This document shows positions 12 to 35,603 of a stretch of DNA of 64,000 nt, piece after piece. The position numbers and the translations under genes were made by a program. The stretch comes from Sedimentibacter sp. zth1 (GTDB lineage: Bacteria > Bacillota > Clostridia > Tissierellales > Sedimentibacteraceae), in the NCBI RefSeq assembly GCF_017352195.1, contig NZ_CP071445.1:930001-994000 (forward strand), read 5' to 3'. Below the pieces are notes generated by a model, which worked only from the letters and a program-made list of their open reading frames with translations, ran no database searches and was not told where the DNA came from. Position 1 is the stretch's first letter. The number at the start of each line of letters is the position of its first letter.

Positions 12-2069
12 CTATTTTATTGGAAATGCGCTTAGCATACCACCATCATCTGATAAAATAATTTTAATCATTTCTTCGCCTTTAGTACCGACTTGCTTAC
101 CTGCCTTGATTATAATTTCATAGGACTGCCTACCTTGACTAGTAAGTCCATTATCAAGTACATCCACTATACTTCCATTCTCCATCGCATCTCTCAATAT
201 GGCTTCTGCGGCTTCTTTTGAATCTCCAAGGAATTTCGCACCATTTCCACCTGTTGTAGATAAATGCTTTGGCTTTACATAAGTACTTTTTAAATCGAAC
301 TTATTAAATACTTTAGTTCCATCTTGTACGAGTTTACTAATCCCCTTAAACAAGTACCCTGTACTATTAATTAAGCCACCAAGCATTTCTCCACCAACAT
401 ATCCCAAAGACATATCTAATGCTATTTCTGCTACTTCTCGATCACTAGGATTTATTGCACTAAGATAACTATTATTAGCATTATTAAATCTAATTTTCCA
501 AACAATGGATATTGCTTTTGCATGTGCTTTAGTCTTAACAAACCAGTTGTTACTATTCATTTCATTTCTTACTTTTTCAATCTCTTCATCTACATAAATT
601 TCAGTAACATATTCTGGATTCAATTGTTCAATAACAGTAGCTCCACTGTCTTTTCTAGTTTTATAATTATCCAAGTCATCCAAGTTAAGAAAATCTGATT
701 CATTAGGTTCAGTTTCATATATTTTCTCATTCCACTCTAAATCAATACTTCCTGCTGATATTTTTATAGCCTCTTGATTTGATTTTGCTAACTCTGCTGC
801 TGTTACTGTTACATCATATTTTTCTACTCCATTACCGAATATTTCTTTTGTATCATAATCATTTTTATAAATTTCAGTAATTTTTACAGTTCGTTCATAT
901 GTATATATTATTCTACTACCATTGTCATCTTTAATTGCTTTATTCCAATCACCATATTTAGTATTTGTATCGGCAAGATAATATGTCTTTGGTCGTAATT
1001 TTCTCATCAACTCAGCATTTTGATGTGCTATGTTTTGCTTTTCTGTATACTTTCCTGTCTCTAAGAATTCATCTTCATCCTCAAACCATATGTCACTCAT
1101 TTCCTTAAGTTTATCATCTAGCTCATCTCTAGACATATTTTTTATTTGGTCTTCTGTATATTCAGCTAAGTGTCCTGTAGGGTCTACATAGTTTACTGGG
1201 TTATTTAATGCGTATGCATATTGGTTTAATGATTGTGGATTTGATATATTACCTCTATAGGTATCTTCTGTCATAAATCTTCCTACATTTGGATTATACC
1301 ATCTTGCATTCATATATACAAGTGATGCTTTATCATCATATAGATGTCCTGTATAACCTCTTAAGTTATATGGTGATGTTATGCCTGTTTGTATGTTTCC
1401 AAATACATCATATCTATAGTCTTCTATCTTGTCTCCATGTCTATCTCTTAAGGCTGTTGTTGATGATAAGCCATCAAATTCATAGTACATTAGCGCGCCA
1501 TTTGTATTTATTGTTTCTTCTTTTGATGGTGATATTCTTCCTTTTAGTCCAAACATCTTTTGTGCTACTACTTCTCCATTTGCATAGTAGTATTCATTCA
1601 TTGGCGAACCTTTTTCTGAATATACTTTATGCTGAACATTTGATGTACCTATATAGTCATATCTTTCTATTTCTACGTCTAATTTAGGTAATTCTGGTCC
1701 TTCTTGTCCTGGTTGTCCTTCTAATTTTTTGTATACTCCATATGCTTTTGCATTTTCATTGTCTATTAGACCTTTTGGTATTTCTTTTTGTTTGTCATTT
1801 TTGTTATTCTTTCCTTTGTTATTTGAGTTGCCTGGAGCACTGTCATTGCTTGTATTTGACTTAAATTCTTCCATTAATTTAAGTCCATTTTCATTGTACT
1901 CAGCTACTAATTTAGGGTCATATTCTGCTACTTCTCTTGATACTAATCTTCCTATTCCATCATATTTATATGATGAATATGTACCATTGTCATTTAGTGT
2001 TCCTGTTAGCTGATTTGCTCCATTGTATGTGTATTCAACTTTTTCTTCTGGTGATTCTGATAGCATCAA
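12..2069 (-). CDS. Orphan RHS core plus C-terminal toxin cassette 1
   Basis: This 685-residue frame carries an RHS-associated core ending in NPVNYVDPTGH near residue 300, then a pre-toxin stretch and a variable tip. It has no ribosome binding site, and homology to the intact RHS gene continues upstream through a stop codon, so it is probably silent DNA rather than an expressed gene. The tip (last ~90 residues: KPKHLSTTGG, GTKGEE, ILSDDGG, AFPIK) has the spaced His, GTKGE and terminal AFP pattern seen in small RNase toxins of the BECR fold; that assignment is inference. The stop codon overlaps an AGGAGG site at positions 8-13, as at the intact RHS/immunity junction, so an immunity gene probably starts just off the left edge. 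Confidence 0.85.
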   Translation of the reverse strand: MMLSESPEEKVEYTYNGANQLTGTLNDNGTYSSYKYDGIGRLVSREVAEYDPKLVAEYNENGLKLMEEFKSNTSNDSAPGNSNNKGKNNKNDKQKEIPKGLIDNENAKAYGVYKKLEGQPGQEGPELPKLDVEIERYDYIGTSNVQHKVYSEKGSPMNEYYYANGEVVAQKMFGLKGRISPSKEETINTNGALMYYEFDGLSSTTALRDRHGDKIEDYRYDVFGNIQTGITSPYNLRGYTGHLYDDKASLVYMNARWYNPNVGRFMTEDTYRGNISNPQSLNQYAYALNNPVNYVDPTGHLAEYTEDQIKNMSRDELDDKLKEMSDIWFEDEDEFLETGKYTEKQNIAHQNAELMRKLRPKTYYLADTNTKYGDWNKAIKDDNGSRIIYTYERTVKITEIYKNDYDTKEIFGNGVEKYDVTVTAAELAKSNQEAIKISAGSIDLEWNEKIYETEPNESDFLNLDDLDNYKTRKDSGATVIEQLNPEYVTEIYVDEEIEKVRNEMNSNNWFVKTKAHAKAISIVWKIRFNNANNSYLSAINPSDREVAEIALDMSLGYVGGEMLGGLINSTGYLFKGISKLVQDGTKVFNKFDLKSTYVKPKHLSTTGGNGAKFLGDSKEAAEAILRDAMENGSIVDVLDNGLTSQGRQSYEIIIKAGKQVGTKGEEMIKIILSDDGGMLSAFPIK

Positions 2070-2195
2070 GTTACCTGATGTATCATAACTAAAAATTTGT
2101 TGTATTCATAGTTTGATCTTTCACCTTCTTAGTTTAACTCGGATATTATGTTTTCATATAAATCATAAGTGTAGCTCCAGCTGTTTTTATACTTT
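2070..2195 (-). pseudogene. RHS repeat remnant upstream of cassette 1
   Basis: This stretch matches the intact RHS gene around 10905-11005 (NSWSYTYD and GERSNYEYN are readable). It is joined to sequence that matches 9540-9567, so about 1.3 kb of the RHS gene is missing at the join. It contains an in-frame TAA within the ELN-EGERS stretch and a frameshift at the join. This shows that cassette 1 is a recombined fragment and not an independently started gene. Confidence 0.75.
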
Positions 2196-3681: not shown

Positions 3682-4035
3682 TTATAGATTAAAAACTATG
3701 TTGTTACTTGATGATATCACTTTTAAAGGAATATTGTGATATGATATTTCAGAATTAGCCCCCTCAACAATATCTTCTCTAGAGGGAAATGAAATACTAG
3801 CAATAAGTATCTCTGGTAAGCTTATAACGCTTGTGAATTTAACTGTGCATGCATTATACTCTTCATATCCTTCTTCCTCCATTTCTAATCCATTATCAGT
3901 TTCATAAAATGTTGTGATTACTGCTTTGATTATAGTTCCATCTTTCCACTCAAAAGTTAGTTCCTCCTGAGGATTCATTTTCCAATAATACGTTAAAGCA
4001 GTCATTATTCTTTCTTCAAGTTCATTTTTATACAT
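3682..4035 (-). CDS. Putative immunity protein for cassette 2 toxin (Ntox50-like)
   Basis: A 117-residue acidic protein that starts 8 bp after the toxin frame 4044-6047 and ends just before a strong terminator. It has no signal peptide or membrane segment, as expected for a cytoplasmic immunity protein. I do not recognise a named family. The immunity role is inferred from position, size and charge. Confidence 0.65.
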   Translation of the reverse strand: MYKNELEERIMTALTYYWKMNPQEELTFEWKDGTIIKAVITTFYETDNGLEMEEEGYEEYNACTVKFTSVISLPEILIASISFPSREDIVEGANSEISYHNIPLKVISSSNNIVFNL

Positions 4036-4043
4036 AGTTCCTC

Positions 4044-6047
4044 CTACGGCATTGGTCTTGCAGGTATAATGTGAACACCCTTGTTAGAATAGTGGATAAT
4101 CCCGATTGAAGTATCTATTGCTTCACCTGTCGCTTGGTCAACAAATTGACCTATCGTCCGACCAAAATCAACTCTTTCTTTATTTGATGTAATCCATTCT
4201 CCTGTACCAGCAAAATCATCAACCAATTTTTGAGCATCATCTAGAGTGCCATTTAAAATACTTCTTCCAGTAGTATAATTATTGTGACCTAAAATATGTT
4301 TTCCTTGTTTCCCTGCATGAACAGTTGTGTCAAAACCATTGACTAGTTTTCCCGTCCCCTTAGTAATATCATCAATAGAACCACTTACAATTCTTAATGT
4401 ATCTCCAGAATAGTGAAGTATTGTATCTCCATGAACCAAATACTTAATACCTTTTGCCGCTTCATCTGCCCAAGGAACAATAACTGATATAAGCAAACCA
4501 CCCTCTGTAAGTGTTCTATCAAGCTCACTTAATTCCTCACCAGTGAATAAATTTGTATTCGTTTTTAATTCATATACATCTAATATAGACCCCACAATAG
4601 GCGTTGCTCTAATAGTATATTGTCCAACAGGTGTGCTGAAAAATTTTTGCCAGCTCATAGCACTTCGCATGCCTCCCATTGCTTGGCTAATATATCCTTG
4701 TGGTATACCCATAGATTTCATAGATAAATATGCATATGCTTCTGTTGCCGAACCATACTGCTCTGTCAATTGTTCAATCAACTCATTTTCTATCAAATCC
4801 TGTAATTGATTTTGAGTATCTTCAGTTAAGTTATTAGAACTATTCCCAGCTGTACTTTTATCAGGTTCAGTTTCATATATTTTCTCATTCCACTCTAAAT
4901 CAATACTTCCTGCTGATTTTTTTATAGCCTTTTGATTTGATTTTGCTAACTCTGCTGCTGTTACTGTTACATCATATTTTTCTACTCCAGTACCTATTCT
5001 TTCTTTTGTTTTATAATCATTTTTATAAATTTCTGTAATTGTTACAGTTCGTTCATATGTATATATTATCCTACTACCATTATCGTTTTTATTTACTTCT
5101 TTCAAATCACCATATTCAGTATTTGTATCGGCAAGATAATATGTATATGGACGTAACTCTCTCATCAACTCAGCATTTTGATGTGCTGTGTTTTGCTTTT
5201 CTGTATGCTTTCCTGTTTCTAAGAAAATATCATAATCCTCAAACCATATGTCACTCATACGTGATATTTCACTATTTACTTTTGACCTTGACATAGCTAA
5301 TATCTTTGATTCTGTATATACTGCTAAGTGTCCTGTAGGGTCTACATAGTTTACTGGGTTATTTAATGCATATGCATATTGGTTTAATGATTGTGGATTT
5401 GACATATTACCTCTATAGGTATCTTCTGTCATAAATCTTCCTACATTTGGATTATACCATCTTGCATTCATATATACAAGCGATGCCTTATCATCATATA
5501 AATGTCCTGTATAGCCTCTTAAGTTGTATGGTAATGTTATACCTGTTTGTATGTTTCCAAACACATCATACCTGTAGTCTTCTATCTTGTCTCCATGTCT
5601 GTCTCTTAAAGCTGTTGTTGATGATAATCCATCAAATTCATAGTACATTAGCCCGCCATTTGTATTTATTGTTTCTTCTTTTGATGGTGATATTCTTCCT
5701 TTTAGTCCAAACATCTTTTGTGCTACTACTTCTCCATTGGCATAGTAGTATTCATTCATTGGCGAACCTTTTTCTGAGTATACTTTATGTTGAACATTTG
5801 ATGTACCTATATAGTCATATCTTTCTATTTCTATATTTAATTTTGGTAATTCTGGTCCTTCTTGTCCTGGTTGTCCTCCTAATTTTTTGTATACTCCATA
5901 TGCTTTTGCATTTTCATTGCCTATTAGACCTTTTGGTATTTCTTTTTGTTTGTCATTTTTGTTATTCTTTTCGTTATTATTTTTTCCGTTTTTATTTGAG
6001 TTGCCTGGAGCACTGTCATTGCTTGTATTTGACTTAAATTCTTCCAT
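4044..6047 (-). CDS. Orphan RHS core plus type 50 polymorphic toxin cassette 2
   Basis: This 667-residue frame carries an Asn/Lys-rich linker, the RHS-associated core (YRYDVFGN, ending in YVDPTGHLA near residue 240) and a long variable tip. The last ~90 residues (KQGKHILGHNNY, GRSILNG, GIIHYSNKGVHIIPARP) match the pattern I know as polymorphic toxin type 50, a predicted RNase tip. Homology to the intact RHS gene continues upstream to about 6250 but meets an in-frame TAA where the intact gene has SESPEE. There is no ribosome binding site at the ATG. It is therefore probably a silent cassette, kept intact together with its immunity gene. Confidence 0.85.
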   Translation of the reverse strand: MEEFKSNTSNDSAPGNSNKNGKNNNEKNNKNDKQKEIPKGLIGNENAKAYGVYKKLGGQPGQEGPELPKLNIEIERYDYIGTSNVQHKVYSEKGSPMNEYYYANGEVVAQKMFGLKGRISPSKEETINTNGGLMYYEFDGLSSTTALRDRHGDKIEDYRYDVFGNIQTGITLPYNLRGYTGHLYDDKASLVYMNARWYNPNVGRFMTEDTYRGNMSNPQSLNQYAYALNNPVNYVDPTGHLAVYTESKILAMSRSKVNSEISRMSDIWFEDYDIFLETGKHTEKQNTAHQNAELMRELRPYTYYLADTNTEYGDLKEVNKNDNGSRIIYTYERTVTITEIYKNDYKTKERIGTGVEKYDVTVTAAELAKSNQKAIKKSAGSIDLEWNEKIYETEPDKSTAGNSSNNLTEDTQNQLQDLIENELIEQLTEQYGSATEAYAYLSMKSMGIPQGYISQAMGGMRSAMSWQKFFSTPVGQYTIRATPIVGSILDVYELKTNTNLFTGEELSELDRTLTEGGLLISVIVPWADEAAKGIKYLVHGDTILHYSGDTLRIVSGSIDDITKGTGKLVNGFDTTVHAGKQGKHILGHNNYTTGRSILNGTLDDAQKLVDDFAGTGEWITSNKERVDFGRTIGQFVDQATGEAIDTSIGIIHYSNKGVHIIPARPMP

Positions 6048-6250
6048 TAGTTTAAGTCCATTTTCATTGTACTCAGCTACTAATTTAGGGTCATATTCTG
6101 CTACTTCTCTTGATACTAATCTTCCTATTCCATCATATTTATATGATGAATAGGTACCATTGTTATTTAGTGTTCCTGTTAGCTGATTTGCTCCATTGTA
6201 TGTGTATTCAACCTTTTCTTATGGTGATTCTGATAGTATAAAGTTCCCTG
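6048..6250 (-). pseudogene. RHS remnant with nonsense codon upstream of cassette 2
   Basis: It translates as FILSESP-stop-EKVEYTYNGANQL and continues into the 4044-6047 frame. The match to the intact gene stops abruptly at about 6250, where an IS3-type transposase fragment begins. The insertion or deletion at this edge cut off the 5' part of the RHS gene. Confidence 0.8.
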
Positions 6251-6253
6251 AAA

Positions 6254-6527: not shown

Positions 6528-6918
6528 TAGACTCTGATTTCTCCAGATGAAACAACACCGATTCCAAGGTTTCTTCTGAATAGACTTCCACAGGTTTTTC
6601 AGAACCTTTGGCATTTTTGATTCTATCTCGTTCCATTTCAACAACCTATTCTGTCATGATGCCTTGATGAATGAGAAAATCATTGAAACTCTGCAAGCTG
6701 TTCAATTTCTTGTTGATGGTGGTTGGTTCATAGTTTTCCTTGATGAGATAATTCTTGTAGCTGTTGATGGTGAATCTGTTGAGAATGCCATCAAATGATA
6801 GTTCCTTTGTTTCTAGGTATGTGAGAAATCCCATTGTGTCTCCTGTGTAGCTTTGAATGGTTTTCTCTGCTTTTCGTTGTTCTCTGAGGTGTGACTCGAA
6901 TGTTTCAATGTAGTTCAT
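6528..6918 (-). pseudogene. Tyrosine recombinase, N-terminal part, broken by a stop codon
   Basis: From an ATG at 6918 with AAAGGAGA upstream, the frame reads MNYIETFESHLREQRKAEKT and then a core-binding (SAM-like) domain (TINKKLNSLQSFNDFLIHQG). A TAG at 6655-6657 interrupts it; the same frame then continues VVEMERDRIKNAKG, SEKPVEVYSEETLESVLF to about 6528, as in phage-type integrases between the arm and catalytic domains. The catalytic domain is missing. The stretch 6919-7127 upstream shows no gene I can support. Confidence 0.7.
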
Positions 6919-7127
6919 TTGCATCTCCTTTCTCAACGAAAAAACCAATGACACTTTCACCATTGGTCTCTTCCCTCGCATTTGACGTTTTATCGTGTTT
7001 TCATCCCAGCTCTTTTGGAATGTCCCCACTTCCCAAACAAAACTGATTTTTACTACTTTCCGTTTGATTCTGATGCATCTCACACCCCAGTGACTGCAGA
7101 ATCATCATTATGCAGTGTGCTATCATT

Positions 7128-7224: not shown

Positions 7225-7506
7225 TTACTCATTAATATTTAGCAATTCTGCTATCTGAGTCACTTTATTTTTCACTTGTAACTCATCATAATATAGATTA
7301 GGAATCTTCAAATCTTTTTCATCATTAGAGAACCTTGCAGTCATATTACTCAAGTCACTAAAGCACTGATTTTCTTGGTCACTTAGTGTAGAATAATCTG
7401 TCTCAATATCATATTGAATAGTAAATTCATCACAAAAGATATCAATTTTGTAATTGCCTTTCGTAAATTCTCTTGTCAAATAATAGAGTTTTTCTTTATC
7501 AGTCAA
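7225..7506 (-). CDS. Immunity protein of the intact RHS toxin, colicin D immunity-like
   Basis: A 93-residue acidic protein starting with TTG at 7506, seven bases after AGGAGGT. This ribosome binding site overlaps the TAG stop of the RHS gene, so the two are translationally linked. The spacing of REFTKGN...FCDEF...LSDQE...ARFSNDEKD...VKNKVTQIAELL follows the plan of the colicin D immunity / bacterial self-protective colicin-like immunity family. It should bind and block the tip of the RHS protein in the cytoplasm. Family placement is from memory of the pattern; the immunity role is well supported by position. Confidence 0.75.
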   Translation of the reverse strand: MTDKEKLYYLTREFTKGNYKIDIFCDEFTIQYDIETDYSTLSDQENQCFSDLSNMTARFSNDEKDLKIPNLYYDELQVKNKVTQIAELLNINE

Positions 7507-7517
7507 TATTCTACCTC

Positions 7518-10500
7518 CTATTTTATAGCATCAAACGGACCAATTGATTTCTGTGTGTACTTAAAATGCATTATAGTATTTGTTACTTCATCATACAAGA
7601 CTTCCATGTTATATTTTTTCCCATTCTTAAACATAGTTGTATAATGCATCAACGCATCTGTTCCCTGTGGGTCTGCAAATCCTTTTGTTGATGTAATAGC
7701 ATCTTTTAGTGTTTCTACTGGAATATATCTTCCTGAGTTATCCATATGTTTTGCAGTAGTAGTTGTAAAGTTAAGTCCTTCATCTATATTCTTGAAGACA
7801 GTTTCACACGTATCCTTAAACAAGCACCCTGTACTATTAATTAAGCCACCAAGCATTTCTCCACCAACATATCCCAAAGACATATCTAATGCTATTTTTG
7901 CTACTTCTCGATCACTAGGATTTATTGCACTAAGATAACCATTAGTAGCATAATTTAATCTATTTTCCCAAACAATGGATATTGCTTTTCCATATGCTTT
8001 AATCTTAACAAACCAGTTGTTACTATCCATTTCATTACTTACTTTTTCAATCTCTTCATCTACATAAATTTCAGTAACATATTCTGGATTCAATTGTTCA
8101 ATAACAGTAGCTCCACTGTCTTTTCTAGTTTTCCCAGCTGTACTTTTATCAGGTTCAGTTTCATATATTTTCTCATTCCACTCTAAATCAATACTTCCTA
8201 CTGATCTTTTTATAGCCTCTTGATTTCCTTGTGCCAACTCTGCTGCTGTTACCGTTTCATCATATTTTTCTACTCCAGTACCAATTCTTTCTTTTGTATC
8301 AGAATCATTTTTATAAATTTTTGTAATTGTTACAGTACGTTCATATGTATATATTATTCTACTACCATTGTCATCTTTAATTGCTTTATTCCAATCACCA
8401 TATTCAGTATTTGTATCGGCAAGATAATATGTCTTTGGTCGTAACTCTCTCATCCGTTCAGCATTTTGGTGTGCTATGTTTTGCTTTTCTGTATGCTCTT
8501 CTGTTTCATCGAAAATATCTTTATCCTCAAACCATATTTTACTCATACTTTCTATTTCTTTATCTAGCTCTTCTCTAGACATATTTAGTATTTGGTCGTC
8601 TGTATATACCGCTAAGTGTCCTGTAGGGTCTACATAATTTACTGGGTTATTTAATGCGTATGCATATTGGTTTAGTGATTGTGGATTTGATATATTACCT
8701 CTATAGGTGTCTTCTGTCATAAATCTTCCTACATTTGGATTATACCATCTTGCATTCATATATACAAGGGAGGCTTTATCGTCATATAGATGTCCTGTAT
8801 AGCCTCTTAAGTTATATGGTGATGTTATGCCTGTTTGTATGTTTCCAAATACGTCATATCTATAGTCTTCTATCTTGTCTCCATGTCTATCTCTTAAAGC
8901 TGTTGTTGATGATAATCCATCAAATTCATAGTACATTAGCCCGCCATTTGTATTTATTGTTTCTTCTTTTGATGGTGATATTCTTCCTTTTAGTCCAAAC
9001 ATCTTTTGTGCTACTACTTCTCCATTTGCATAGTAGTATTCATTCATTGGCGAACCTTTTTCAGAGTATACTTTATGTTGAACACTTGATGTGCCTATAT
9101 AGTCATATCTTTCTATTTCTGTATTTAATTTTGGTAGTTCTGGTCCTTCTTGTCCTGGTTGTCCTTCTAATTTTTTGTATACTCCATATGCTTTTGCATT
9201 TTCATTGCCTATTAGACCTTTTGGTATTTCTTTTTGTTTGTCATTTTTGTTATTATTTCCATTATTATTCTTTCCGTTATTATTCTTATCTTTGTTATTT
9301 GAGTTACCTGGAGCACTGTCATTGTTTGTATTTGACTTAAACTCTTCCATTAATTTAAGTCCATTTTCATTGTACTCAGCTACTAATTTAGGATCATATT
9401 CTGCTACTTCTCTTGATACTAATCTTCCTAGTCCATCATATTTATATGATGAATATGTACCATTCTCATTTAGTGTTCCTGTTAGCTGATTTGCTCCATT
9501 GTATGTGTATTCAACCTTTTCTTCTGGTGATTCTGATAGCATCAAGTTACCTGATGTATCATAACTAAATGTTTTATTTCCTGCTTGTACTACCCTATTG
9601 GCTCTATCATAGTTATAGTTTATTGTCTGACCATCTGATGTCATGCTTAATCTATTTCCAACTCCATCGTATGTATAGTTCACTGTTTCATATACTGGTG
9701 TTAGATAGTTTGTTGTTGATAGTATTAACTCTTTAAATGTAAATTCTTCTGATGAACCAAATGATGTTGAGTCAGTATTATTATTTTTCTTTTGCTGTCC
9801 TGGTGGTATCTTATCCTTGTTTTTATCTTTATTGTTTGACTTTCCGTTATTTTTATCATCAGGCTTAGTCTTATCTTTTGGTTTATTTTTGTCATTTGGG
9901 TTATTCTTATCATTTTTTGTTTTATCGTTTGAGTTATTATTTTTATCTGTGTTTGGTATTAGGTCATCACCAGGTGTTTCTTTTTTATCATTTTGTGAAT
10001 TAGAATTAACATTTGGAAATTTGTCAGTAGTTTCTTTATCATAGTTTGAATTATTATTTTTACCAATTAATTTTATGTTTGACAATGATGCAAACAACAC
10101 TGGTTCTTCTGATATTATATCAAAAATACTACTTATTCCATCTATGCTTTTTTCTTTTTTATTATTTGACTTGCCATTATTTTTGTCTGGCTTGCCATTG
10201 TTTTCATTTGGCTTACTATCATTTTCATTTGATTCAGTTTTATTGTTTGATGATGGCTGTTTTATGTCTTGTGCTGCTAATAATGCTTCTATTTTTGATT
10301 TCGGATAATCAACTTGTGTTATTCTGCCTAAAGCATCATATTTGTATGATGTCTCAGCACCATCTTCTTCTATTACCTTTGTTCTATTTCCATTTACATC
10401 ATACTCATAGATAAAGCCTGATTCTATTTCATCAACTCTTAGATTTATTAATTCTTCCAAATGTCCATCTTGATTGTATGTCCTTTTTTCTGTCATTCCA

Positions 10501-13500
10501 TTTGGCAATGATTTTTCTATTTGTCTGTCTAGAGCATCATATTTGTATGTTGTTATGTTTTCATCTGGATCTGTAAATGTTAATAGTCTACCTTTGCTAT
10601 CATATTCATAGTTAAATACTCTATCTTCTTCATTTATCATCTGTGTAATGTTGCCTGCAACATCATATTTAAAGATTTTTGTTTTATCTAATGTGATATT
10701 ATGCTGTTTTGTTATTCTTCCTGCAACATCATATGTATATTCTTCTACTGAATCTGGTGATTCTTGCCTAATTAGTCTTCCATATGTATCGTACTCATAT
10801 GATGCATATGTATCTCCATAGTTAATATATGTTGGCATTTCTTCACTGTTGTAGGTATATGTAACTTCTTTATTACCAACATGTTTTCTTACTAATTCAC
10901 CAAATTTGTTGTATTCATAGTTTGATCTTTCACCTTCTGAATTTAACTCAGATATTATATTCCCATTTGCATCATAAGTGTAGCTCCAGCTGTTTTTATT
11001 TGCATCAACGATACTATTTATATTTCCTATTGAATCATAATTGTATGATGTAACATATCCTAATGCATCTTGAACCTCTATTAGATGATTATTTTCATTA
11101 TAGTTATAGCTTGTTGCGGTACCAGAAGGGTCTATAACCTTTGTAATATTATTATTTGGGTCATATTCATATATTGTTTTGCTTCCACTAGGTGTTATTG
11201 ATGCTATTAGTCTTGATAAAGTATCATATTCAGAAACCCATTTGTTCCCTAGCTTATCTACTGTTGTTACAACATTTAATGCATCATCGTATGTAAATGT
11301 TGTGCTTAATCCTTCTTCATCAGTTTCTTCTAAAATTCTTCCTACTTTGTCATATGTATATCTTGTCAATTCACCTAATGGTGTTGTAACTTCTGCTAAT
11401 GTACCATCGTCATGGTAGCTATATTGAGTTTTATCTCCTAATATGCTTTCTACTGATACTATTCTGTTTAACTCATCGTATTTGTATGATGTACTATATC
11501 CACTTCCTGATTCTGACGATATTATATTTCCTAAAGCATCGTATTTATAGTTTTGAGTCCTTCCTGTAGAAGTAACCGCATCTGTAACTCTTCCAAGAGC
11601 ATCATATGAGTATGATGTACTTATTTTACCAATTATATTTTCTTTTGTAAGATTTCCATTTTTGTCATATGAATATTCTGTAACTTTACCTAATGGATCT
11701 GTTGATGTTATAACTTGATTATTTTCATTGTATTGATAATTATATATACCTCCGTTTGGAGCTGTTACGCTTATAGTTCTTCTCAATTCATCGTATTTAT
11801 ATGTTGTAGCATTTCCTAATGGATCTACTATTTTTTCTAAGTTACCAAGATTATCATATGTGTATAAGGTATTAAAGCCTTTATAGTCACTTTGTGATAT
11901 TAGCTGACCAACCTCGTCATAGGTAAATTGTTTTTGGTAACCCATTTTGTTTGTTACTGTTTGTACTTGTCCTAGTAAATCGTACGTAAATGTTTCAGTA
12001 TTGTTTTGCCAGTCTGTCCTTTTTATTAATTGGTTTTGCAAGTCAAATGTATCTACTGTTTTTCTGTTTAGTGGATCTATTGTTGTTATTGTGCCATTTA
12101 AGTCATCGTATTTATACTTAGTAATTTTCTCTCCAGGCTCAATTACTTGCAAAATTCTATCAGATGTATCATATTCATAGCTTGTTTGTTGATTCTTTCT
12201 ATTTGTGTGTTTAATAAGCTGACCTTTTATATCATATTCATATTTGTCATTTAACCCATCTGGATATGTCAGATCCTCTACTAAACCATCAATTGTATAT
12301 TTATATGATGTTGTATTTCCAAGAGGGTCTACTACTGATGATATTTGATTCATTTCATCGTATGTAAATAAAGTTATATATCCCTCTGGGTCTGTTGTAG
12401 ATAATATATTTCCATTTGAGTCATATTCAAAATTTGTTTTATTTCCTAATGGGTCAATTACACTAATTACCTGAGATAAAGCATCATAAGTATAGTCTGT
12501 GCTATAGCCTAGTGCATTTGTTTCTTTTATTACATTACCAACTAAATCATATGTATATTCTGCATCTACTTGTCCATTTGCATTTATTATTTCCTCTACT
12601 TGATTCATTGGTGTGTATTTATATGTAGTAATTCTTCCTAGTGCATCTGTTAACTGCTCTAGGTTTCCTTTTTTGTCATATTGGAAATTTTGCTCGTTTC
12701 CAAGAGGATCTATTATAGAAGTAACTCGACCTAATATATCATATGAATATTTAGTTTTAGCGTTATTTTCATTTTTTTGCTCTATAATATTTCCTAAATT
12801 ATCATAAGTGTAACTTGAAAGTACTCCTCTTTGATTTTTTACCTTTATTATTTGTCCATATTTATCATATGTGTTTTCAATAAATGTATCTTTAGTTTTT
12901 TCAAGTATTAAGTTTCCATATTTATCGTATTCATAGATAGTTTCTACACCTTTTGCATCTATAACTGAAGCTAATTGATCAAGTATATTATATGTGTAAG
13001 TATTTTTAGCACCATTTAATTCTTGTCTTTCAATTAATCTTCCATGATCGTCATATGTAAATAATACTTGTCCACCATTAGATACTTCTATATTTATTAG
13101 CTTGTCATTTTCATTGTATGTATATGTTGTTTTATTGCTATTGGCATCTGTTACAATCATTTGATTGTCAATATCATTATAGGTTATAGTTACTGTATTG
13201 TTTAAGGCATTTGTGTACTCTATTAACCTGTTTTTTACATCATAAGTAAATGTAGTTTTATTGTCTAATGGGTCTGTTACAGAAGTAATATTACCTTTTT
13301 TATCATACTCATATGTAATTATCCCACCGTTTGACAATGTCACAGCAGTTATTTGATCTTTTTCGTTGTATCTGTATTTTGTTTCATAGCCTGCTTGGTC
13401 TTTAATATTAATTAACTGTCTGTATTCATTATATTTATAGTCTTCTCCAAAACCTAAACCATCTTCACAACGTATCATTTTACCGTCTTTGTCATAGGTA

Positions 13501-15764
13501 TATAATGAAATTATGTTACCATTTAATGATTCTTTTATTACTCTTCCCCATATATCATATTCATAGGATACAAGTCTTTCACCTTGTTTTACTGATATAA
13601 CTCTGTCAAATATATCGTATGAATAAATTAATTCTAAATCATTAAAGTCTTTTATCTTGGTTATTTTACCATATTTGTCATATTCGTATGTTTTTGTAAG
13701 ACCTGTAGGAGATACCACTTCTATTAATAAGTCATCTACATATTTGTATAGTATTTCTCTATTTCTATGGTCTACTACTCTTGTAGTTCTACCTAAGTTA
13801 TCAGTATATACAGTTAATGTACCTTCGTTTGTTATTATGGTATATGTATTATTTTCGTATATATAGTCTATCTGATAATTATCATTTTTAACTTGTATTA
13901 CTCTTCCTTGACTGTCATATGTATAATTTGTTGTTCCACTACTATTTGCTACTGAAGTTAGCTGTCCCATTTTATCTCTTGTATATGTAACAGTTTCCCC
14001 ATTTTGTGTAATAGAATCAGCTAAGCTAGTATTTGAATAGTTATATGTATTTTCATTTCCATCTACATAAGATTTTATAAGTCTACCAAATAAATCATAT
14101 TCAAATTTAGACATTCTACTTATATTTGATATACTTGTTATGTTACCTAAAGTATCATATGTGTATACTTCTTCATAACCTTCTGGTGATGTTTCTTTTA
14201 CAAGTCTACCTAACTTATCAAATACATAGTTTGTTTCATGACCACTATAATCTTTTTTTATTAAGTATCCATTTGCATCGTAATTATATGTTGTAGTTTT
14301 ATTATCAGCGTTTGTTACAGTTTCTATTAAGCCTTTTTCATTATATGTAAATGTATTTGTTCTACCCTTTTCATCTGTTGATGTAAGCATATCTCCATTT
14401 GCATTGTATGTATATGTTTTTGTTCCTATATCTGATGTTTGGCTTAATAAAGAGTTATATGCATCATCAGCATATGTATAAGTAGTTTCTTTGCCAAATA
14501 TATCTATTGTTGATAATAGATTGCCGTCTTCATCATAGCTATATGATGTTGTGCCAGCTTTTGTAGTTTCTTTTATCATGCGATTTTCTTTATACTCATA
14601 TTTATATGTATCGCCTAATAAATCTACATGTTTTATTAGATTACCTTCTTCATCATATGTTAATTCCTCTACACCACCATTTGCATCTATAATGGTAGTT
14701 TTGTTTCCATCGTATGCATAGTTGTATATAGTATTGCCATTTATTGATACTGATGAAATTTTGTCATTCTCATATGTGAAGTTCTGTGTTAATCCATTTT
14801 CACTTATTTTAGTTAGCTTTCCAGATGTATATTCATAACTAGCTATCTCTCTGTCTGTTGTTTTTACTGATGTTAAATATCCATTTGCGTATGTAAAATA
14901 TACTTCTAGATTATGTGGACCTGTCATTTTAGATATATATCCATTGCTACCATATGTTATTATTAATTTTTGCTGACCATTTTCTAAGGCTGTTAATCTT
15001 CCATTATTGTCATACTCATATGTTATTTGGTTGCCATATACATCTTCTCTTTTTAGTAGCTTTCCTTCTAAAACGTGTCCGTCTGTTCTCCATGGTGCTT
15101 TATAACCGTAGTAAGTTAATTTTTCACCTTTTTTTGTTGTTACTATATATTCTGTTTTACTAATTCTTTCTAAACTATCACCTGCTGCTAATTCATAATG
15201 TCCTTCGTGAAGTTTATAGTTTACTAATGGATCATCATCGTACGATGTTACGTCACCATTTTCTAAATCTTTTACAAATTTAAATGCTCTTTTTGTTCCG
15301 TTTACCCTTATTTCTCCAATATCATAGGCTGAATACATTTTTAATTCTGTGTAAAAGTTTAAGTCCCATCCCTTTCCGAATGAACCTTCTGTATCGTCAG
15401 AATTAAATCTTGCTAGTTTCAAATCATATCCAAGTGCGCCTATATTTATGTCATAATATTCTAAGTTCAATTTACCTGTAGATTGATTTACTTTAGAGTC
15501 ATATCTACTTGTTTCTTGTGGACCTGTCACTAGCTCCGATGGTTTGTTGTATGCCTGTGGTGATATATTGCCATTTGGCAATTGTGGTATGTTTAACTGG
15601 GTGTCTGTTGTAGGCAAATCAACATTTGGTGTGATTTGATTTTCATTTAGCATTTCTAACATTTCAAGAGGGTCATAAACTAAGTTGCTTTGTGCGAATG
15701 CTGGTGTAACTGATTGGATCAATAATTGTAGCATAATTATTATTACTAAAATTTTCTTCTTCAT
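7518..15764 (-). CDS. Full-length secreted RHS repeat polymorphic toxin
   Basis: A 2,748-residue WapA-type protein. The start is the ATG at 15764, with GAGGGG four bases upstream. Residues 1-25 are a signal peptide (MKKKILVIIIMLQLL, then TPAFA). An N-terminal domain (to ~residue 190) is followed by dozens of YD repeats of about 20-21 residues (to ~1800), an Asn/Lys-rich linker at ~1835-2010, a second one near 2150-2175, and the RHS-associated core ending in NYVDPTGHLA near residue 2380. In related proteins the repeats form a shell around the toxin, and cleavage follows the core. The tip (KHMDNSGRYIPVETLKDAI, MHYTTMFKNGKKYNMEV, IMHFKY) looks like a BECR-fold RNase and is paired with a colicin D immunity-like gene; activity is inferred. 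It is transcribed from a riboswitch-controlled leader. Confidence 0.95.
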   Translation of the reverse strand: MKKKILVIIIMLQLLIQSVTPAFAQSNLVYDPLEMLEMLNENQITPNVDLPTTDTQLNIPQLPNGNISPQAYNKPSELVTGPQETSRYDSKVNQSTGKLNLEYYDINIGALGYDLKLARFNSDDTEGSFGKGWDLNFYTELKMYSAYDIGEIRVNGTKRAFKFVKDLENGDVTSYDDDPLVNYKLHEGHYELAAGDSLERISKTEYIVTTKKGEKLTYYGYKAPWRTDGHVLEGKLLKREDVYGNQITYEYDNNGRLTALENGQQKLIITYGSNGYISKMTGPHNLEVYFTYANGYLTSVKTTDREIASYEYTSGKLTKISENGLTQNFTYENDKISSVSINGNTIYNYAYDGNKTTIIDANGGVEELTYDEEGNLIKHVDLLGDTYKYEYKENRMIKETTKAGTTSYSYDEDGNLLSTIDIFGKETTYTYADDAYNSLLSQTSDIGTKTYTYNANGDMLTSTDEKGRTNTFTYNEKGLIETVTNADNKTTTYNYDANGYLIKKDYSGHETNYVFDKLGRLVKETSPEGYEEVYTYDTLGNITSISNISRMSKFEYDLFGRLIKSYVDGNENTYNYSNTSLADSITQNGETVTYTRDKMGQLTSVANSSGTTNYTYDSQGRVIQVKNDNYQIDYIYENNTYTIITNEGTLTVYTDNLGRTTRVVDHRNREILYKYVDDLLIEVVSPTGLTKTYEYDKYGKITKIKDFNDLELIYSYDIFDRVISVKQGERLVSYEYDIWGRVIKESLNGNIISLYTYDKDGKMIRCEDGLGFGEDYKYNEYRQLINIKDQAGYETKYRYNEKDQITAVTLSNGGIITYEYDKKGNITSVTDPLDNKTTFTYDVKNRLIEYTNALNNTVTITYNDIDNQMIVTDANSNKTTYTYNENDKLINIEVSNGGQVLFTYDDHGRLIERQELNGAKNTYTYNILDQLASVIDAKGVETIYEYDKYGNLILEKTKDTFIENTYDKYGQIIKVKNQRGVLSSYTYDNLGNIIEQKNENNAKTKYSYDILGRVTSIIDPLGNEQNFQYDKKGNLEQLTDALGRITTYKYTPMNQVEEIINANGQVDAEYTYDLVGNVIKETNALGYSTDYTYDALSQVISVIDPLGNKTNFEYDSNGNILSTTDPEGYITLFTYDEMNQISSVVDPLGNTTSYKYTIDGLVEDLTYPDGLNDKYEYDIKGQLIKHTNRKNQQTSYEYDTSDRILQVIEPGEKITKYKYDDLNGTITTIDPLNRKTVDTFDLQNQLIKRTDWQNNTETFTYDLLGQVQTVTNKMGYQKQFTYDEVGQLISQSDYKGFNTLYTYDNLGNLEKIVDPLGNATTYKYDELRRTISVTAPNGGIYNYQYNENNQVITSTDPLGKVTEYSYDKNGNLTKENIIGKISTSYSYDALGRVTDAVTSTGRTQNYKYDALGNIISSESGSGYSTSYKYDELNRIVSVESILGDKTQYSYHDDGTLAEVTTPLGELTRYTYDKVGRILEETDEEGLSTTFTYDDALNVVTTVDKLGNKWVSEYDTLSRLIASITPSGSKTIYEYDPNNNITKVIDPSGTATSYNYNENNHLIEVQDALGYVTSYNYDSIGNINSIVDANKNSWSYTYDANGNIISELNSEGERSNYEYNKFGELVRKHVGNKEVTYTYNSEEMPTYINYGDTYASYEYDTYGRLIRQESPDSVEEYTYDVAGRITKQHNITLDKTKIFKYDVAGNITQMINEEDRVFNYEYDSKGRLLTFTDPDENITTYKYDALDRQIEKSLPNGMTEKRTYNQDGHLEELINLRVDEIESGFIYEYDVNGNRTKVIEEDGAETSYKYDALGRITQVDYPKSKIEALLAAQDIKQPSSNNKTESNENDSKPNENNGKPDKNNGKSNNKKEKSIDGISSIFDIISEEPVLFASLSNIKLIGKNNNSNYDKETTDKFPNVNSNSQNDKKETPGDDLIPNTDKNNNSNDKTKNDKNNPNDKNKPKDKTKPDDKNNGKSNNKDKNKDKIPPGQQKKNNNTDSTSFGSSEEFTFKELILSTTNYLTPVYETVNYTYDGVGNRLSMTSDGQTINYNYDRANRVVQAGNKTFSYDTSGNLMLSESPEEKVEYTYNGANQLTGTLNENGTYSSYKYDGLGRLVSREVAEYDPKLVAEYNENGLKLMEEFKSNTNNDSAPGNSNNKDKNNNGKNNNGNNNKNDKQKEIPKGLIGNENAKAYGVYKKLEGQPGQEGPELPKLNTEIERYDYIGTSSVQHKVYSEKGSPMNEYYYANGEVVAQKMFGLKGRISPSKEETINTNGGLMYYEFDGLSSTTALRDRHGDKIEDYRYDVFGNIQTGITSPYNLRGYTGHLYDDKASLVYMNARWYNPNVGRFMTEDTYRGNISNPQSLNQYAYALNNPVNYVDPTGHLAVYTDDQILNMSREELDKEIESMSKIWFEDKDIFDETEEHTEKQNIAHQNAERMRELRPKTYYLADTNTEYGDWNKAIKDDNGSRIIYTYERTVTITKIYKNDSDTKERIGTGVEKYDETVTAAELAQGNQEAIKRSVGSIDLEWNEKIYETEPDKSTAGKTRKDSGATVIEQLNPEYVTEIYVDEEIEKVSNEMDSNNWFVKIKAYGKAISIVWENRLNYATNGYLSAINPSDREVAKIALDMSLGYVGGEMLGGLINSTGCLFKDTCETVFKNIDEGLNFTTTTAKHMDNSGRYIPVETLKDAITSTKGFADPQGTDALMHYTTMFKNGKKYNMEVLYDEVTNTIMHFKYTQKSIGPFDAIK

Positions 15765-15849
15765 AAAACCCCTCAATAAAAATATATTTTTGTGTAATTT
15801 TCCAAAACTATATCACTACAAATAAAGTTTTGGTTTATAGTCAATGTTA

Positions 15850-15888
15850 ATAAAATAAAAAATCCCTATGCAAAAAAGGCATAGAGAT
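15850..15888 (-). terminator. Riboswitch-linked intrinsic terminator in the RHS leader
   Basis: The minus strand reads ATCTCTATGCC, TTTTTT loop, GCATAGGGAT, then TTTTTTATTTTATT. It sits between the c-di-GMP aptamer and the RHS start codon, about 85 bp before the ATG, so it is the likely expression platform for transcription control. Confidence 0.85.
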
Positions 15889-15899
15889 ACAAATATACA

Positions 15900-15985
15900 T
15901 ACGCTTACTACAACTGGCTATCATAATTTTCATCTTAGACCCTTAGCTTTGCGTCACCAGATTTCTCTGGGTTTGCCATTTTATC
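15900..15985 (-). ncRNA. Cyclic di-GMP-I (GEMM) riboswitch aptamer
   Basis: On the minus strand this segment has the GEMM-I consensus in order. GGCAAACC is followed by a CCAGA-GAAA-TCTGG tetraloop stem, then GGTGACGCAAAGCTAAGGG, TCTAAG (receptor side) and ATGATAGCC. It lies between a sigma-A-type promoter and an intrinsic terminator, in the 5' leader of the RHS toxin gene. Cyclic di-GMP should therefore control how often transcription reaches the toxin and immunity genes. Whether the ligand turns it on or off cannot be read safely from the sequence. Confidence 0.93.
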
Positions 15986-16059
15986 ACATTTAAACTATAT
16001 TTAATTTTAATTAGTTGGTCACTCACTGATTTTCGTATATTTACCAATTAACAAGCCAT

Positions 16060-16088
16060 ATAATACCATGTTTTAAATTTTAAGTCAA
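16060..16088 (-). promoter_or_regulatory. Promoter of the RHS toxin leader
   Basis: TTGACT (16083-16088) and TATTAT (16060-16065) are separated by 17 bp on the minus strand. Transcription would start near 16053, about 70 nt before the riboswitch aptamer. Confidence 0.7.
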
Positions 16089-16339: not shown

Positions 16340-17612
16340 CGACAACGACCTACCTTCAAAAAGACCCACAGAGACTGGTTGTAACATAACCTCAGAGACT
16401 AGCTGTAACACTATTAAATTAACCAACGCAAGACTAGCCACATATCAAAAAAGAATAATTTCACTGTCAAAGCATTGTGGAGCATAGGAAGAATTGTACA
16501 AAGTGGAGTGAGCGTTCTAAGTCAATTTAGACTAGCTTTAAAAACTTGTCACACGCATTTGACTTATGCGAACAAAACTGCAGTTACAATTCTCTATGCG
16601 CAACATAGCTGAGTAAAGGAAATTATTATTCCTTTTTATGACCAAATAGACTAGCTATAACAAGACCTCAGAGACTGGCTGTAACAAGACCTCAAAGACT
16701 AGCTGTAACAAGAACTACAAGAACTATCTATAATACATTTAAATTGACCAACGCAAGACTAGCCACATATCAAAAAAGAATAATTTCACTGTCGAAGCAT
16801 TGTGGAGCATAGGAAGAATTGTACAAAGTGGAGTAAGCGTTCTAAGTCAATTTAGACTAGCTTTAAAAACTTGTCACACGCATTTGACTTATGCGAACAA
16901 AACTGCAGTTACAATTCTCTATGCGCAACATAGCTGAGTAAAGGAAATTATTATTCCTTTTTATGACCAAATAGACTAGCTATAACAAGACCTCAGAGAC
17001 TGGCTGTAACAAGACCTCAAAGACTAGCTGTAACAAGAACTACAAGAACTATCTATAATACATTTAAATTGACCAACGCAAGACTAGCCACATATCAAAA
17101 AAGAATAATTTCACTGTCGAAGCATTGTGGAGCATAGGAAGAATTGTACAAAGTGGAGTAAGCGTTCTAAGTCAATTTAGACTAGCTTTAAAAACTTGTC
17201 ACACGCATTTGACTTATGCGAACAAAACTGCAGTTACAATTCTCTATGCGCAACATAGCTGAGTAAAGGAAATTATTATTCCTTTTTATGACCAAATAGA
17301 CTAGCTATAACAAGACCTCAGAGACTGGCTGTAACAAGACCTCAAAGACTAGCTGTAACAAGAACTACAAGAACTATCTATAATACATTTAAATTGACCA
17401 ACGCAAGACTAGCCACATATCAAAAAAGAATAATTTCACTGTCGAAGCATTGTGGAGCATAGGAAGAATTGTACAAAGTGGAGTGAGCGTTCTAAGTCAA
17501 TTTAGACTAGCTTTAAAAACTTGTCACACGCATTTGACTTATGCTAACAAAACTGCAGTTACAATTCTCTATGCAAAACATAGCTGAGTAAAGAAAATTA
17601 TTCTTCATTTTC
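16340..17612. repeat. Four-copy 325-bp tandem repeat containing a long palindrome
   Basis: The motif ACCAACGCAAGACTAGCC begins at 16422, 16747, 17072 and 17397, exactly 325 bp apart, with very few differences between copies. Each unit has a ~190-bp imperfect palindrome (AAAGAATAATTT at one end, AATTATTATTCCTTTTT at the other; about 16447-16637, 16772-16962, 17097-17287, 17422-17612). Short degenerate 24-bp units like AACAAGACCTCAGAGACTGG flank it, and similar degenerate units lead in from 16340. There is no credible open frame. The last palindrome ends inside the stop codon region of the carrier protein gene. Related palindromes occur at 35604, 41124, 41463 and 41842. Confidence 0.9.
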
Positions 17613-17838
17613 TATTAATTAAATTACAAATTGCAATTGGATTTCTTAAATCCCTTTTGGATATTTGTGTTAATTGCAATTCAATATCTAGTAATTCTAA
17701 TTCATATATAAACTGAATAATTGCATAAGAATCTAATATTCCACTATCTAACAATTCAGTATCTTTACATATTTCGTTTTCACTTGCACAAACTTTATTT
17801 AAAATTTCTAATATTTTATCTATCATACGCCAATCCAC
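17605..17838 (-). CDS. Acyl/peptidyl carrier protein, DltC-like
   Basis: A 77-residue acidic protein with TELLDSGILDSYAIIQFIYEL. The Ser of LDS is the expected phosphopantetheine site, and the spacing is as in DltC and small carrier proteins. It follows the adenylation enzyme by 6 bp and is likely its acceptor. The start is unsure: GTG at 17838 or ATG at 17826, neither with a strong ribosome binding site. Its stop codon lies inside the end of the 325-bp repeat array. No DltB or DltD homologue is next to it, so the final acceptor of the activated acid is unknown. Confidence 0.75.
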   Translation of the reverse strand: MDWRMIDKILEILNKVCASENEICKDTELLDSGILDSYAIIQFIYELELLDIELQLTQISKRDLRNPIAICNLINRK

Positions 17839-17844
17839 ATTTAT

Positions 17845-19254
17845 TTATTTAATAAATCTCTTTCTATTTGAATTAAGAGGAATTTCATTTGTAATTACAA
17901 TTGATTTTGGTATTGAATATTTAGGTAACATCCTACTTAACTCTTCATAAATATACTTTTCATCAATTGTTTTATCTGCACAAACAACATAAGCCATTAA
18001 TCCTATTACATCTTTAGAAGTATTTAATTTTGTACACACTTGAACTTGCTCAACACCTCTAATTTTATATATCGTATTTTCTATTTCATCTAATTCTATT
18101 CTATAGCCTTTATACTTAATTTGATTATCTATTCTACCATCAAAATATATCATACCATTCTCTATATGTCCTAAATCTCCAGTATAATAATAAATTTTAT
18201 TATTAATTAGCTTAAATTGTTTATTATCATAATTTGTATATCCTTTTGATACACTTTTGCCACTTAAAACAATTTCTCCACAACTTAAATCATTAATAAA
18301 TACTCCATTAGAGTCAATTATTTTAACTTCTACAGCACAATTATTCATATCACCAATTGGAAGTTTATTGTATTTTGTCATGTCTTCATTTATTTCAACA
18401 GCTGAAACACAACAAGTAGCTTCACTTGGACCATATGCATTAATGATATGCACATCTATAAAACGTTCCATAAATTTTTTTGCAACAAATGGTTTTAATA
18501 CTTCACCGCACAAAAACATTATCTTTAAATTAGGTAACAATGTAGAATTAAATGATTTATCACATAAGCATAATTCTAAAAACGATGGAGTAAAAACAGC
18601 CATTTCTGCATTAGATTTCTTAATATAACAAAATAGCAAATTAAAATTTGACATGATATTATCATTTAAGCAAAACAAAAGAGATTTATTCCAAAGCGAA
18701 TAATATATATCTAACACAGATAAATCAAATGAAAACAGAGCTTGATTGAGTATAATTTTAGGCTGAATTTCAGATATAATTTTAAAATTTGTAAACCAAT
18801 TCAAAAAATTATTTATGTTGTTATAACTAATTTTTATACCTTTTGGATAACCAGTACTTCCAGAAGTATATATTTGATATGCTATATCATTTTCTATGCA
18901 TTTATCTAATTTTTCATAATATTTATCGGAATAAAACTCCATATCAATTGAAGATATACACTCTATGTCATCAAGTACCATATTCTCGGTACATAAAACT
19001 AAATTTGCATTTGAATCTTTAATAATATAATCAATTCGGGCTTTTGAAATACTTGTATCACAAATAACATATGCAATGCGTCCAATTATACAAGCAACAA
19101 TAGATATAAACATCAGTTGATTTTTATGTCCATATATTATTACTCTTTCTATATTTCTATTTCTTAAATAGCACGCTAAATTTTTTGATTTTTTATATAA
19201 ATATGTTCTTTCAATACTATCATTTTCACATATATACGCATAATCTAGATTCAT
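17845..19254 (-). CDS. AMP-forming amino acid adenylation enzyme, DltA-like
   Basis: A 469-residue stand-alone adenylation protein. Core motifs are visible: IYTSGSTGYPKG (~residue 150, ATP loop), NAYGPSEATCC, YYTGDLG and GRIDNQIKYKGYRIELDEIE. The C-terminal A10 region is PLNSNRKRFIK, so the catalytic Lys is probably kept although the usual NGK is altered. It should activate an amino acid with ATP and load it on the carrier protein encoded 6 bp downstream. DltA (D-alanine) is the closest type by size and partner, but an NRPS-like substrate is possible. The start follows the vanW stop by 8 bp, with AGGTGAT upstream. Confidence 0.8.
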   Translation of the reverse strand: MNLDYAYICENDSIERTYLYKKSKNLACYLRNRNIERVIIYGHKNQLMFISIVACIIGRIAYVICDTSISKARIDYIIKDSNANLVLCTENMVLDDIECISSIDMEFYSDKYYEKLDKCIENDIAYQIYTSGSTGYPKGIKISYNNINNFLNWFTNFKIISEIQPKIILNQALFSFDLSVLDIYYSLWNKSLLFCLNDNIMSNFNLLFCYIKKSNAEMAVFTPSFLELCLCDKSFNSTLLPNLKIMFLCGEVLKPFVAKKFMERFIDVHIINAYGPSEATCCVSAVEINEDMTKYNKLPIGDMNNCAVEVKIIDSNGVFINDLSCGEIVLSGKSVSKGYTNYDNKQFKLINNKIYYYTGDLGHIENGMIYFDGRIDNQIKYKGYRIELDEIENTIYKIRGVEQVQVCTKLNTSKDVIGLMAYVVCADKTIDEKYIYEELSRMLPKYSIPKSIVITNEIPLNSNRKRFIK

Positions 19255-19262
19255 TTTATCAC

Positions 19263-20102
19263 CTAATTTATTTGTCTACTAGTATACATAATTTCTTCTT
19301 TTGGTATTAAAGAATAATCATACATAACCTTAGAGTGATTGTTCAAAATCAACTCTTTTTTTACTATTTGCTTGTCATTATCAAAAACTAATCTATAAAT
19401 CTGACTAACTCTAAAATATTCACCATTTTCTTCTACAAACCCATGGTTTTCTTCTGTAATTTGATATTTATACTCAAATTTTTGTGTTGACCGCAGTTCG
19501 CCACATAAATAGCCTTCACTTTGCCATATAATTAATTGTACAGGTAGATTAGTATTATTTTTAAATCTATAATCAATATGCTTATAAAACACACTCGTTC
19601 CTGTTCCAAAAGGCACTCTTCTATTTGAATCCGGGAAAAGAGCATCAGTATGATGGTGTAACTCTACTACCTCCATAGGAGAATGCAATACTAACCAATG
19701 TATTAAATTAGCCAGCTGACATAATCCTCCTCCTATATTTTTACCAACTGCTCCTTTTGAAATAGTTAGTCCATCAAGGTATCCTTTCTTAGCTAAAGGT
19801 TTACCTACAAGCTTCCAAAATGAAAATGTCTGTCCCGATTTTATTATTATACAATTTATCCTATCTCCAGCTAATTTTAAATTTTTAGCTTTATTATGCT
19901 GTAAGTTTATATCAACTCCATTCAACATTCTAAGTATTTGAGAACTGTGTCCTTTAATTATAACCGGTAGCTTCTCAGTACTTATTTTTTTACTAAATTT
20001 AGTTTTATTAATTATATCCTTTAAATCATATATAAAATATTCCTTTAATAATGATATTTTATAAGTTAATGGACATATTTCACAAAATAGCTTTCTTTTC
20101 AA
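19263..20102 (-). CDS. vanW: VanW family protein
   Basis: A 279-residue protein with the VanW signature: SGQTFSFWKLVG, GKNIGGGLCQLANLIHWLVL, then HHHTDALFPDSNRRVPFGTG. VanW occurs in vanB-type glycopeptide resistance clusters and in many genomes without them; its biochemical role is unknown. There are no van ligase, VanX or VanRS genes here, so vancomycin resistance should not be inferred. The start is TTG at 20102 with GGGGG upstream and a good promoter at 20164-20192. It heads a tight three-gene operon with the adenylation enzyme and carrier protein, which suggests a cell-envelope role. Confidence 0.85.
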   Translation of the reverse strand: MKRKLFCEICPLTYKISLLKEYFIYDLKDIINKTKFSKKISTEKLPVIIKGHSSQILRMLNGVDINLQHNKAKNLKLAGDRINCIIIKSGQTFSFWKLVGKPLAKKGYLDGLTISKGAVGKNIGGGLCQLANLIHWLVLHSPMEVVELHHHTDALFPDSNRRVPFGTGTSVFYKHIDYRFKNNTNLPVQLIIWQSEGYLCGELRSTQKFEYKYQITEENHGFVEENGEYFRVSQIYRLVFDNDKQIVKKELILNNHSKVMYDYSLIPKEEIMYTSRQIN

Positions 20103-20163
20103 AATATCCCCCTATAGCAATCAGAGATTGTATTTCCATATTTTAGCGTGGTTTATATTTATT

Positions 20164-20192
20164 ATTATACCAAATATTTACTATTTTGTAAA
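20164..20192 (-). promoter_or_regulatory. Promoter of the vanW operon
   Basis: TTTACA (20187-20192) and TATAAT (20164-20169) are 17 bp apart on the minus strand, about 62 bp before the vanW start. Confidence 0.7.
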
Positions 20193-20214
20193 CTATTCAA
20201 TAAACACCTTACCT

Positions 20215-21786: not shown

Positions 21787-21798
21787 ATACATTCCTCC

Positions 21799-35085: not shown

Positions 35086-35603
35086 ATGTTTACAAATAAT
35101 AAATTAAATGCTATCTTTCTAAAATTTGAAGTCACATTGCACAATTCAAGCCATAGTGTAAACTTCGGTACAAAAATATACGTTCTTTTCGAGATAACAT
35201 TTAGGAAAATAAAATTTAAATACATCTCATGTTAAGGTTCAACCATAGCAAAATAGCCATTCTTAAATTGTGTTTTCAGGCAATTTTGTTTAAATATCAA
35301 CATTTTTTAATTTTTTTACCAGTTATTTTAAATATTTTATATTTTTAAAAAAACTAATAACAATCATTAATTTTTCAGTAGTTTTATTCATTATTGTTAT
35401 TTATTCAACTGGTAAAATATTTATTATTATACTATTTTTTATATTAACATAATTTATATAAATTTATAAATTATTATTACAAACAAATTACTTCTTCCTT
35501 TATAAAAACTATCCATAGCATAAACTACAGAGACTAACCAAAGCAATGACTAAGAAGCATAGCTAACCAAAAACATACCCCCTCATAGACGTTCTAACCA
35601 AGC

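Follow-up and report, generated by a model that had tools for sequence, protein, structure and literature searches.

A variant aptamer of the c-di-GMP-I (GEMM-I) class, followed by an intrinsic terminator, lies directly upstream of a giant RHS polymorphic-toxin gene on the minus strand of a 64,000-nucleotide stretch of the Sedimentibacter sp. zth1 genome (hereafter the window). The reading that we favour on balance is that this leader is an OFF switch and, by transcription attenuation, controls the gene for a secreted RHS toxin whose tip could be exchanged. As comparable leaders recur in several unrelated clostridia, a second messenger probably governs the timing of contact-toxin production in these bacteria; judging from folding models and from characterised relatives, the gene is most likely turned off when the messenger is abundant. 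The first-pass annotation had placed promoter, GEMM-I aptamer, terminator and RHS gene in this order, which the minus-strand coordinates bear out: promoter-like site at 16088..16060, aptamer at 15987..15906, terminator at 15888..15862, ribosome-binding site at 15774..15769 and ATG at 15764. Its interpretation holds for the aptamer, the terminator and the polymorphic-toxin locus; the sign that it implied, with a biofilm or surface state and high c-di-GMP turning the toxin on, finds no support, since the topology of the leader, the folding model and the OFF behaviour of class-I switches in Clostridioides difficile all favour the opposite.

The aptamer (15906..15987) matches the Rfam covariance model RF01051 over its full length (model positions 1-87) with 66.4 bits and an E value of 8.4e-11, against a gathering score of 35 bits. 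The covariance scan that had been proposed for this site therefore returns a real match, far beyond chance. Residues were mapped by register: as far as the tetraloop-receptor stem, subtracting 9 from the Vc2 number gives the model column. In this alignment the aptamer keeps the GAAA tetraloop and its receptor, G20 (15977), the G21-C46 pair and A47. At columns 10 and 84, beside the binding pocket, a U-A pair stands in place of the A-U pair of family relatives; the pair is kept by a double change, which speaks against decay of the aptamer.

One ligand-contacting position differs. The nucleotide at 15910 (column 83), which by sequence register would correspond to C92, is a U, while each of the 48 other aptamers sampled has a C in column 83. 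C92 is expected to form a Watson-Crick pair with one guanine of c-di-GMP. It has been described as a ligand contact that is less conserved than A47, and changes of C92 in Vc2 weaken c-di-GMP binding (PMC9049102). The published figures, 0.011 nM for wild-type Vc2 and 4,900 nM for the G20A/C92U mutant, cover the double mutant and not the single change (PMC9049102). The affinity of the Sedimentibacter aptamer is probably reduced by the U and its specificity may be changed; for this reason it is termed a variant aptamer here, with c-di-GMP as its presumed ligand. The natural change from C92 to U also offers a ready test of how well the aptamer tolerates losing a ligand contact.

The promoter-like site (16060..16088, minus strand) is of the sigma-70 type, TTGACT-17 nt-TATTAT with a TG before the second hexamer, and matches the consensus at 10 of 12 positions. 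Such sites are common in this AT-rich 2.4-kb region (19 seen, 11.5 expected from shuffles), so that the match is weak evidence by itself; if this candidate promoter is used, transcription would start near 16053. Just upstream of the riboswitch, window positions 16414-17611 hold 3.7 tandem copies of a 325-bp unit that are 98% alike. The unit is a dispersed repeat, with 42 matches spread over about 18 genomic locations, and its 24-bp sub-repeats are also found at 41704-42164.

An expression platform is present between the aptamer and the RHS gene. The intrinsic terminator (15862..15888, minus strand) reads ATCTCTATGC-CTTTTTT-GCATAGGGAT and continues into a T tract to about 15850; it has a 10-bp stem, followed by TTTTTTATTTT, and a hairpin energy of -11.4 kcal/mol. 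Two terminator-like sites were seen in the same 2.4-kb region, where shuffles give 0.9. The aptamer and the terminator are separated by 17 nt and have no base in common; they can therefore coexist, and the ligand would be unable to disrupt the terminator directly.

Folding of growing transcripts suggests how the two elements may communicate. In the free RNA, UGCC of the terminator 5' arm pairs with GGCA of the aptamer pocket, and it is released once the aptamer is enforced. In partition-function folding at the decision length (15865), 6.0-6.2 of the terminator-arm bases are paired to the 3' arm with the aptamer enforced, compared with 2.6-3.8 when it is not. The antiterminator helix of Sedimentibacter has 4 bp (GGCA/UGCC) and is not better than chance (p 0.58 against shuffles). 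The equivalent pairing spans 6-7 bp in the leaders of Anaeromonas, one Anaerosolibacter and a further clostridial genome (G269), and when the complementarity between pocket and terminator is summed for six RHS-linked leaders, it is greater than in shuffles (p 0.0015). The terminator arm CUAUGCC is common to the Sedimentibacter, Anaeromonas and Anaerosolibacter leaders. TGCC occurs in 11 of 48 GEMM-I terminator arms; this general enrichment is not taken as proof, because it is modest and GCTC is just as frequent.

In C. difficile, every working class-I switch is an OFF switch (PMC6200980). A topology in which aptamer and terminator coexist is that of the Cd1 OFF switch, and a mutually exclusive topology that of the pilM ON switch (PMC9262584). 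From the non-overlapping topology, the folding and the uniform behaviour in C. difficile, an OFF switch is expected, with toxin made at low c-di-GMP. The aptamer would fold as soon as it is transcribed. With ligand bound, the terminator 5' arm would be left free, the hairpin at 15888..15862 would form and transcription would stop; when ligand is scarce, the pocket GGCA would pair with UGCC of the terminator arm and some polymerases would read through into the RHS gene. In view of the U at position 92 and an antiterminator helix weaker than in relatives, ligand-dependent control of this particular copy is something that we infer.

The same two features are the starting point for the strongest alternative, which we regard as possible though distinctly less probable: that this is a decaying or very weak riboswitch, having lost affinity (C92 to U) as well as its antiterminator, and that the terminator holds the RHS gene low at all ligand levels. 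Besides the U at a position that is otherwise invariant in our sample, the AAAGGCA/UGCCUUU helix, kept in Anaeromonas and in one Anaerosolibacter leader, is interrupted here by the U at column 10, and the score of 66.4 bits lies below those of the other RHS-linked RF01051 matches (82-88 bits). In equilibrium folding, moreover, no alternative reaches the stability of the finished terminator, whether or not the aptamer is present, and the terminator would form regardless. Decay is harder to reconcile with the fact that the tetraloop, its receptor and every other contact residue are intact, and with a column 10-84 pair in which both bases differ from those of family relatives while the pairing is preserved.

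An ON switch appears unlikely. Here bound ligand would let GCGUA of the linker (15902-15898) pair with UAUGC of the terminator arm (15881-15877), and high c-di-GMP would give more toxin. In transcripts that end at 15868, enforcing the aptamer does leave 5-6.5 arm bases paired to the linker, and in the free RNA the linker GCGU is able to pair with ACGC in the aptamer core. The helix between linker and terminator arm is weak, however, and yields once the terminator 3' arm appears, so that at 15865 the enforced aptamer favours the terminator; nor do terminator and aptamer overlap, and the working class-I switches of C. difficile behave in the opposite sense (PMC6200980).

Finally, it is quite improbable that the variant aptamer, with G20 and U92, senses another cyclic dinucleotide such as 3',3'-cGAMP, the adenine pairing with U92, and marginally more so that it has shifted to an adenine-bearing messenger of this kind and couples it to a contact toxin with a swappable tip: the pairing logic would allow it, G20 contacting one base and position 92 pairing with the other, and binding of c-di-AMP is known for the G20A/C92U double mutant of this class (PMC7288161, PMC9049102), but those GGDEF domains of the genome that could be read have the GHxxGD residue found in ordinary diguanylate cyclases.

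The genome (a single contig of 3.13 Mb, 98.8% complete) encodes 11 GGDEF and 3 EAL domains. As the readable GGDEF domains show the pattern canonical for diguanylate cyclases, c-di-GMP is presumably made; a Hypr-type cGAMP cyclase signature was not seen among them. The riboswitch at the RHS gene is the one c-di-GMP-I riboswitch found in the genome, and family relatives carry up to 12. A search for class-II c-di-GMP riboswitches gave no match in the genome and was equally silent in control genomes. As a separate observation, GEMM-I-type aptamers with an A at position 20 (TAGCAAA) occur in the same order and class (L004, L009, L013, L016, L026 and L112). A at position 20 is the change known from the cGAMP-type GEMM-Ib riboswitches, and by their sequence these Firmicutes aptamers could be cGAMP or dual sensors.

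The gene behind the leader (7518..15764, minus strand) encodes 2,748 amino acids, as the first-pass annotation's claim of a giant RHS gene led one to expect, with 20 RHS-repeat stretches (Pfam E 2.5e-212), an RHS core domain at residues 2303-2383, a pre-toxin region and a short tip at the C-terminus. The start requires a small correction, from the TTG at 15776 given in the open reading frame list to an ATG at 15764, preceded by a proper ribosome-binding site, GAGGGG (15769..15774). The N-terminus resembles a signal peptide, which suggests that the protein is secreted. This N-terminus has no close relatives among 84,980 species, and within the order only weak matches to the repeats were seen; the tip matched no toxin family or solved relative. 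A 93-aa open reading frame directly after the RHS gene (7225..7506, minus strand) is by its position a candidate for the cognate immunity protein, and it has no meaningful Pfam or NCBIfam match.

Behind the RHS gene are 13 homology blocks with 82-95% identical DNA, extending from genome position 936,251 to 898,893 (about 37 kb); the array thus runs past the window, to about position 898,893. We interpret the blocks as orphan C-terminal RHS cassettes whose tips differ: the core motif DPTGH is in frame in 8 of the 13 and is followed by mutually different tips, those with matches being Ntox50, Ntox37 and DUF6883. Orphan cassette 1 (4044..6251, minus strand; ORF 4044-6047) has 91.5% DNA identity to the main gene up to the tip, carries PT-TG and Ntox50, and is followed by a 117-aa open reading frame (3682..4035, minus strand) that has no family assignment and is a candidate immunity gene by position. 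Orphan cassette 2 (12..2190, minus strand; ORF 12-2069) is 91.3% identical to the main gene up to a different tip. One expressed RHS gene with orphan tips is a well-known layout. The RHS/YD repeats and core before a variable tip, together with orphan cassettes bearing toxin domains, point to a polymorphic-toxin locus of which the RHS gene is a part, and its product is presumably toxic. The expressed gene would carry one tip at a time, which the 13 silent downstream cassettes, about 85-95% identical to that gene ahead of their tips, could replace by recombination; any tip would therefore fall under the same leader.

A fragment of a phage-type integrase, comprising the N-terminal SAM-like domain only, separates the main RHS unit from orphan cassette 1 (window 6646-7083); it possibly has a role in cassette traffic or is a relic of it. 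The genome also has a second large RHS gene near position 1,804,620 (L081/L089, 1,796,000-1,820,000), a 2,813-aa open frame without GEMM-I; upstream of it is an open frame of 1,607 aa whose start resembles a signal peptide. Elsewhere in the window, positions 17605-23610 encode an AMP-binding enzyme, a VanW-like protein, a duplicated-ABC (ABC-F-like) protein and an EF-G-like protein resembling ribosomal protection factors, and a small open reading frame in this cluster (17605-17823) may encode a carrier protein. The CRISPR repeat family RF01316 has one match in the window (35214-35243; 52.3 bits, cut-off 41), which has no further direct repeat around it and is perhaps the remnant of a CRISPR array.

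The linkage of GEMM-I to RHS genes recurs in other clostridia. Among the GEMM-I-carrying genomes of the order, 2 of 15 RHS-type genes have GEMM-I upstream, those of Sedimentibacter and Anaeromonas frigoriresistens (G158); twelve more RHS genes of the order have no GEMM-I in their upstream sequence, some stretches of which are shortened by contig ends. A class-wide sample of 391 genomes, 57 of them with RHS genes, contains 117 RHS genes and 147 GEMM-I sites outside the Sedimentibacter genome. For two of these RHS genes, a GEMM-I site on the same strand lies no more than about 3.5 kb upstream, against 0.16-0.18 expected by position (P about 0.01). In one (G269), GEMM-I stands directly before an RHS-type gene; the other is from Lutispora saccharofermentans (G572), and its locus, which includes two orphan cassettes, has an operon in common with Anaeromonas, consisting of GEMM-I, a terminator, a gene for a secreted PD40 beta-propeller and an RHS toxin. 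The propellers of these two are 42% identical, as are the RHS proteins over 1,289 columns.

A scan of 84,980 species found 17 relatives of the propeller. The four closest belong to L. saccharofermentans, A. frigoriresistens, Anaerosolibacter carboniphilus and an Anaerosolibacter MAG, representing three orders (Lutisporales, Tissierellales and Peptostreptococcales), and in each of the four loci the propeller gene is flanked by an upstream c-di-GMP-I-type aptamer and a downstream RHS gene. Between the RHS proteins of the two Anaerosolibacter genomes, identity per 100 columns reaches 96% in the core and is 11-20% in the tip, and the open reading frames in the immunity position are different. With GEMM-I/RHS linkage in at least five other clostridial genomes, this is a conserved arrangement and not an accident of one genome.

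Among characterised systems, the Sedimentibacter leader resembles Cd1 of the C. difficile flgB operon in aptamer class, in a downstream terminator able to coexist with the folded aptamer and in its clostridial host. Cd1 has the canonical C92, unlike Sedimentibacter with its U. It also differs in governing flagella, not a toxin, and its OFF sign is experimental (PMC6200980, PMC9262584). The operon of Anaeromonas, Lutispora and Anaerosolibacter likewise has a GEMM-I leader and terminator with an RHS polymorphic toxin downstream, but there the beta-propeller intervenes between leader and RHS gene and C92 is canonical; in Sedimentibacter the RHS gene comes directly after the leader, and its product has a different N-terminus, without close relatives. 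In Vibrio cholerae, low c-di-GMP favours TfoY and the T6SS, and Vc2-tfoY is thus another case of a GEMM-I element feeding a contact-dependent killing programme (PMC6618264), although control is indirect there, via the regulator TfoY. By analogy, an OFF sign in Sedimentibacter would parallel V. cholerae. The protein itself is like the WapA-type and Rhs toxins with orphan C-terminal cassettes, being a putatively secreted YD-repeat protein with an RHS core, a variable tip and orphan tips downstream; to our knowledge, no riboswitch control is known for WapA or Rhs, and no report of a riboswitch on an RHS gene was found in the literature searched. The parts are of known kinds, while their combination, its recurrence in three clostridial orders and the U92 variant appear to be undescribed in that literature.

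If the OFF-switch reading is true, polymorphic RHS toxins would make up a small, conserved c-di-GMP riboswitch regulon across several clostridial orders, and the contact-dependent competition of these Gram-positive anaerobes would be tied directly to the decision between motile and sessile life. The sign would be unexpected, with toxin made at low c-di-GMP. One RNA switch would then govern whichever toxin a lineage adopts, its tip probably being swappable from the 13 silent cassettes.
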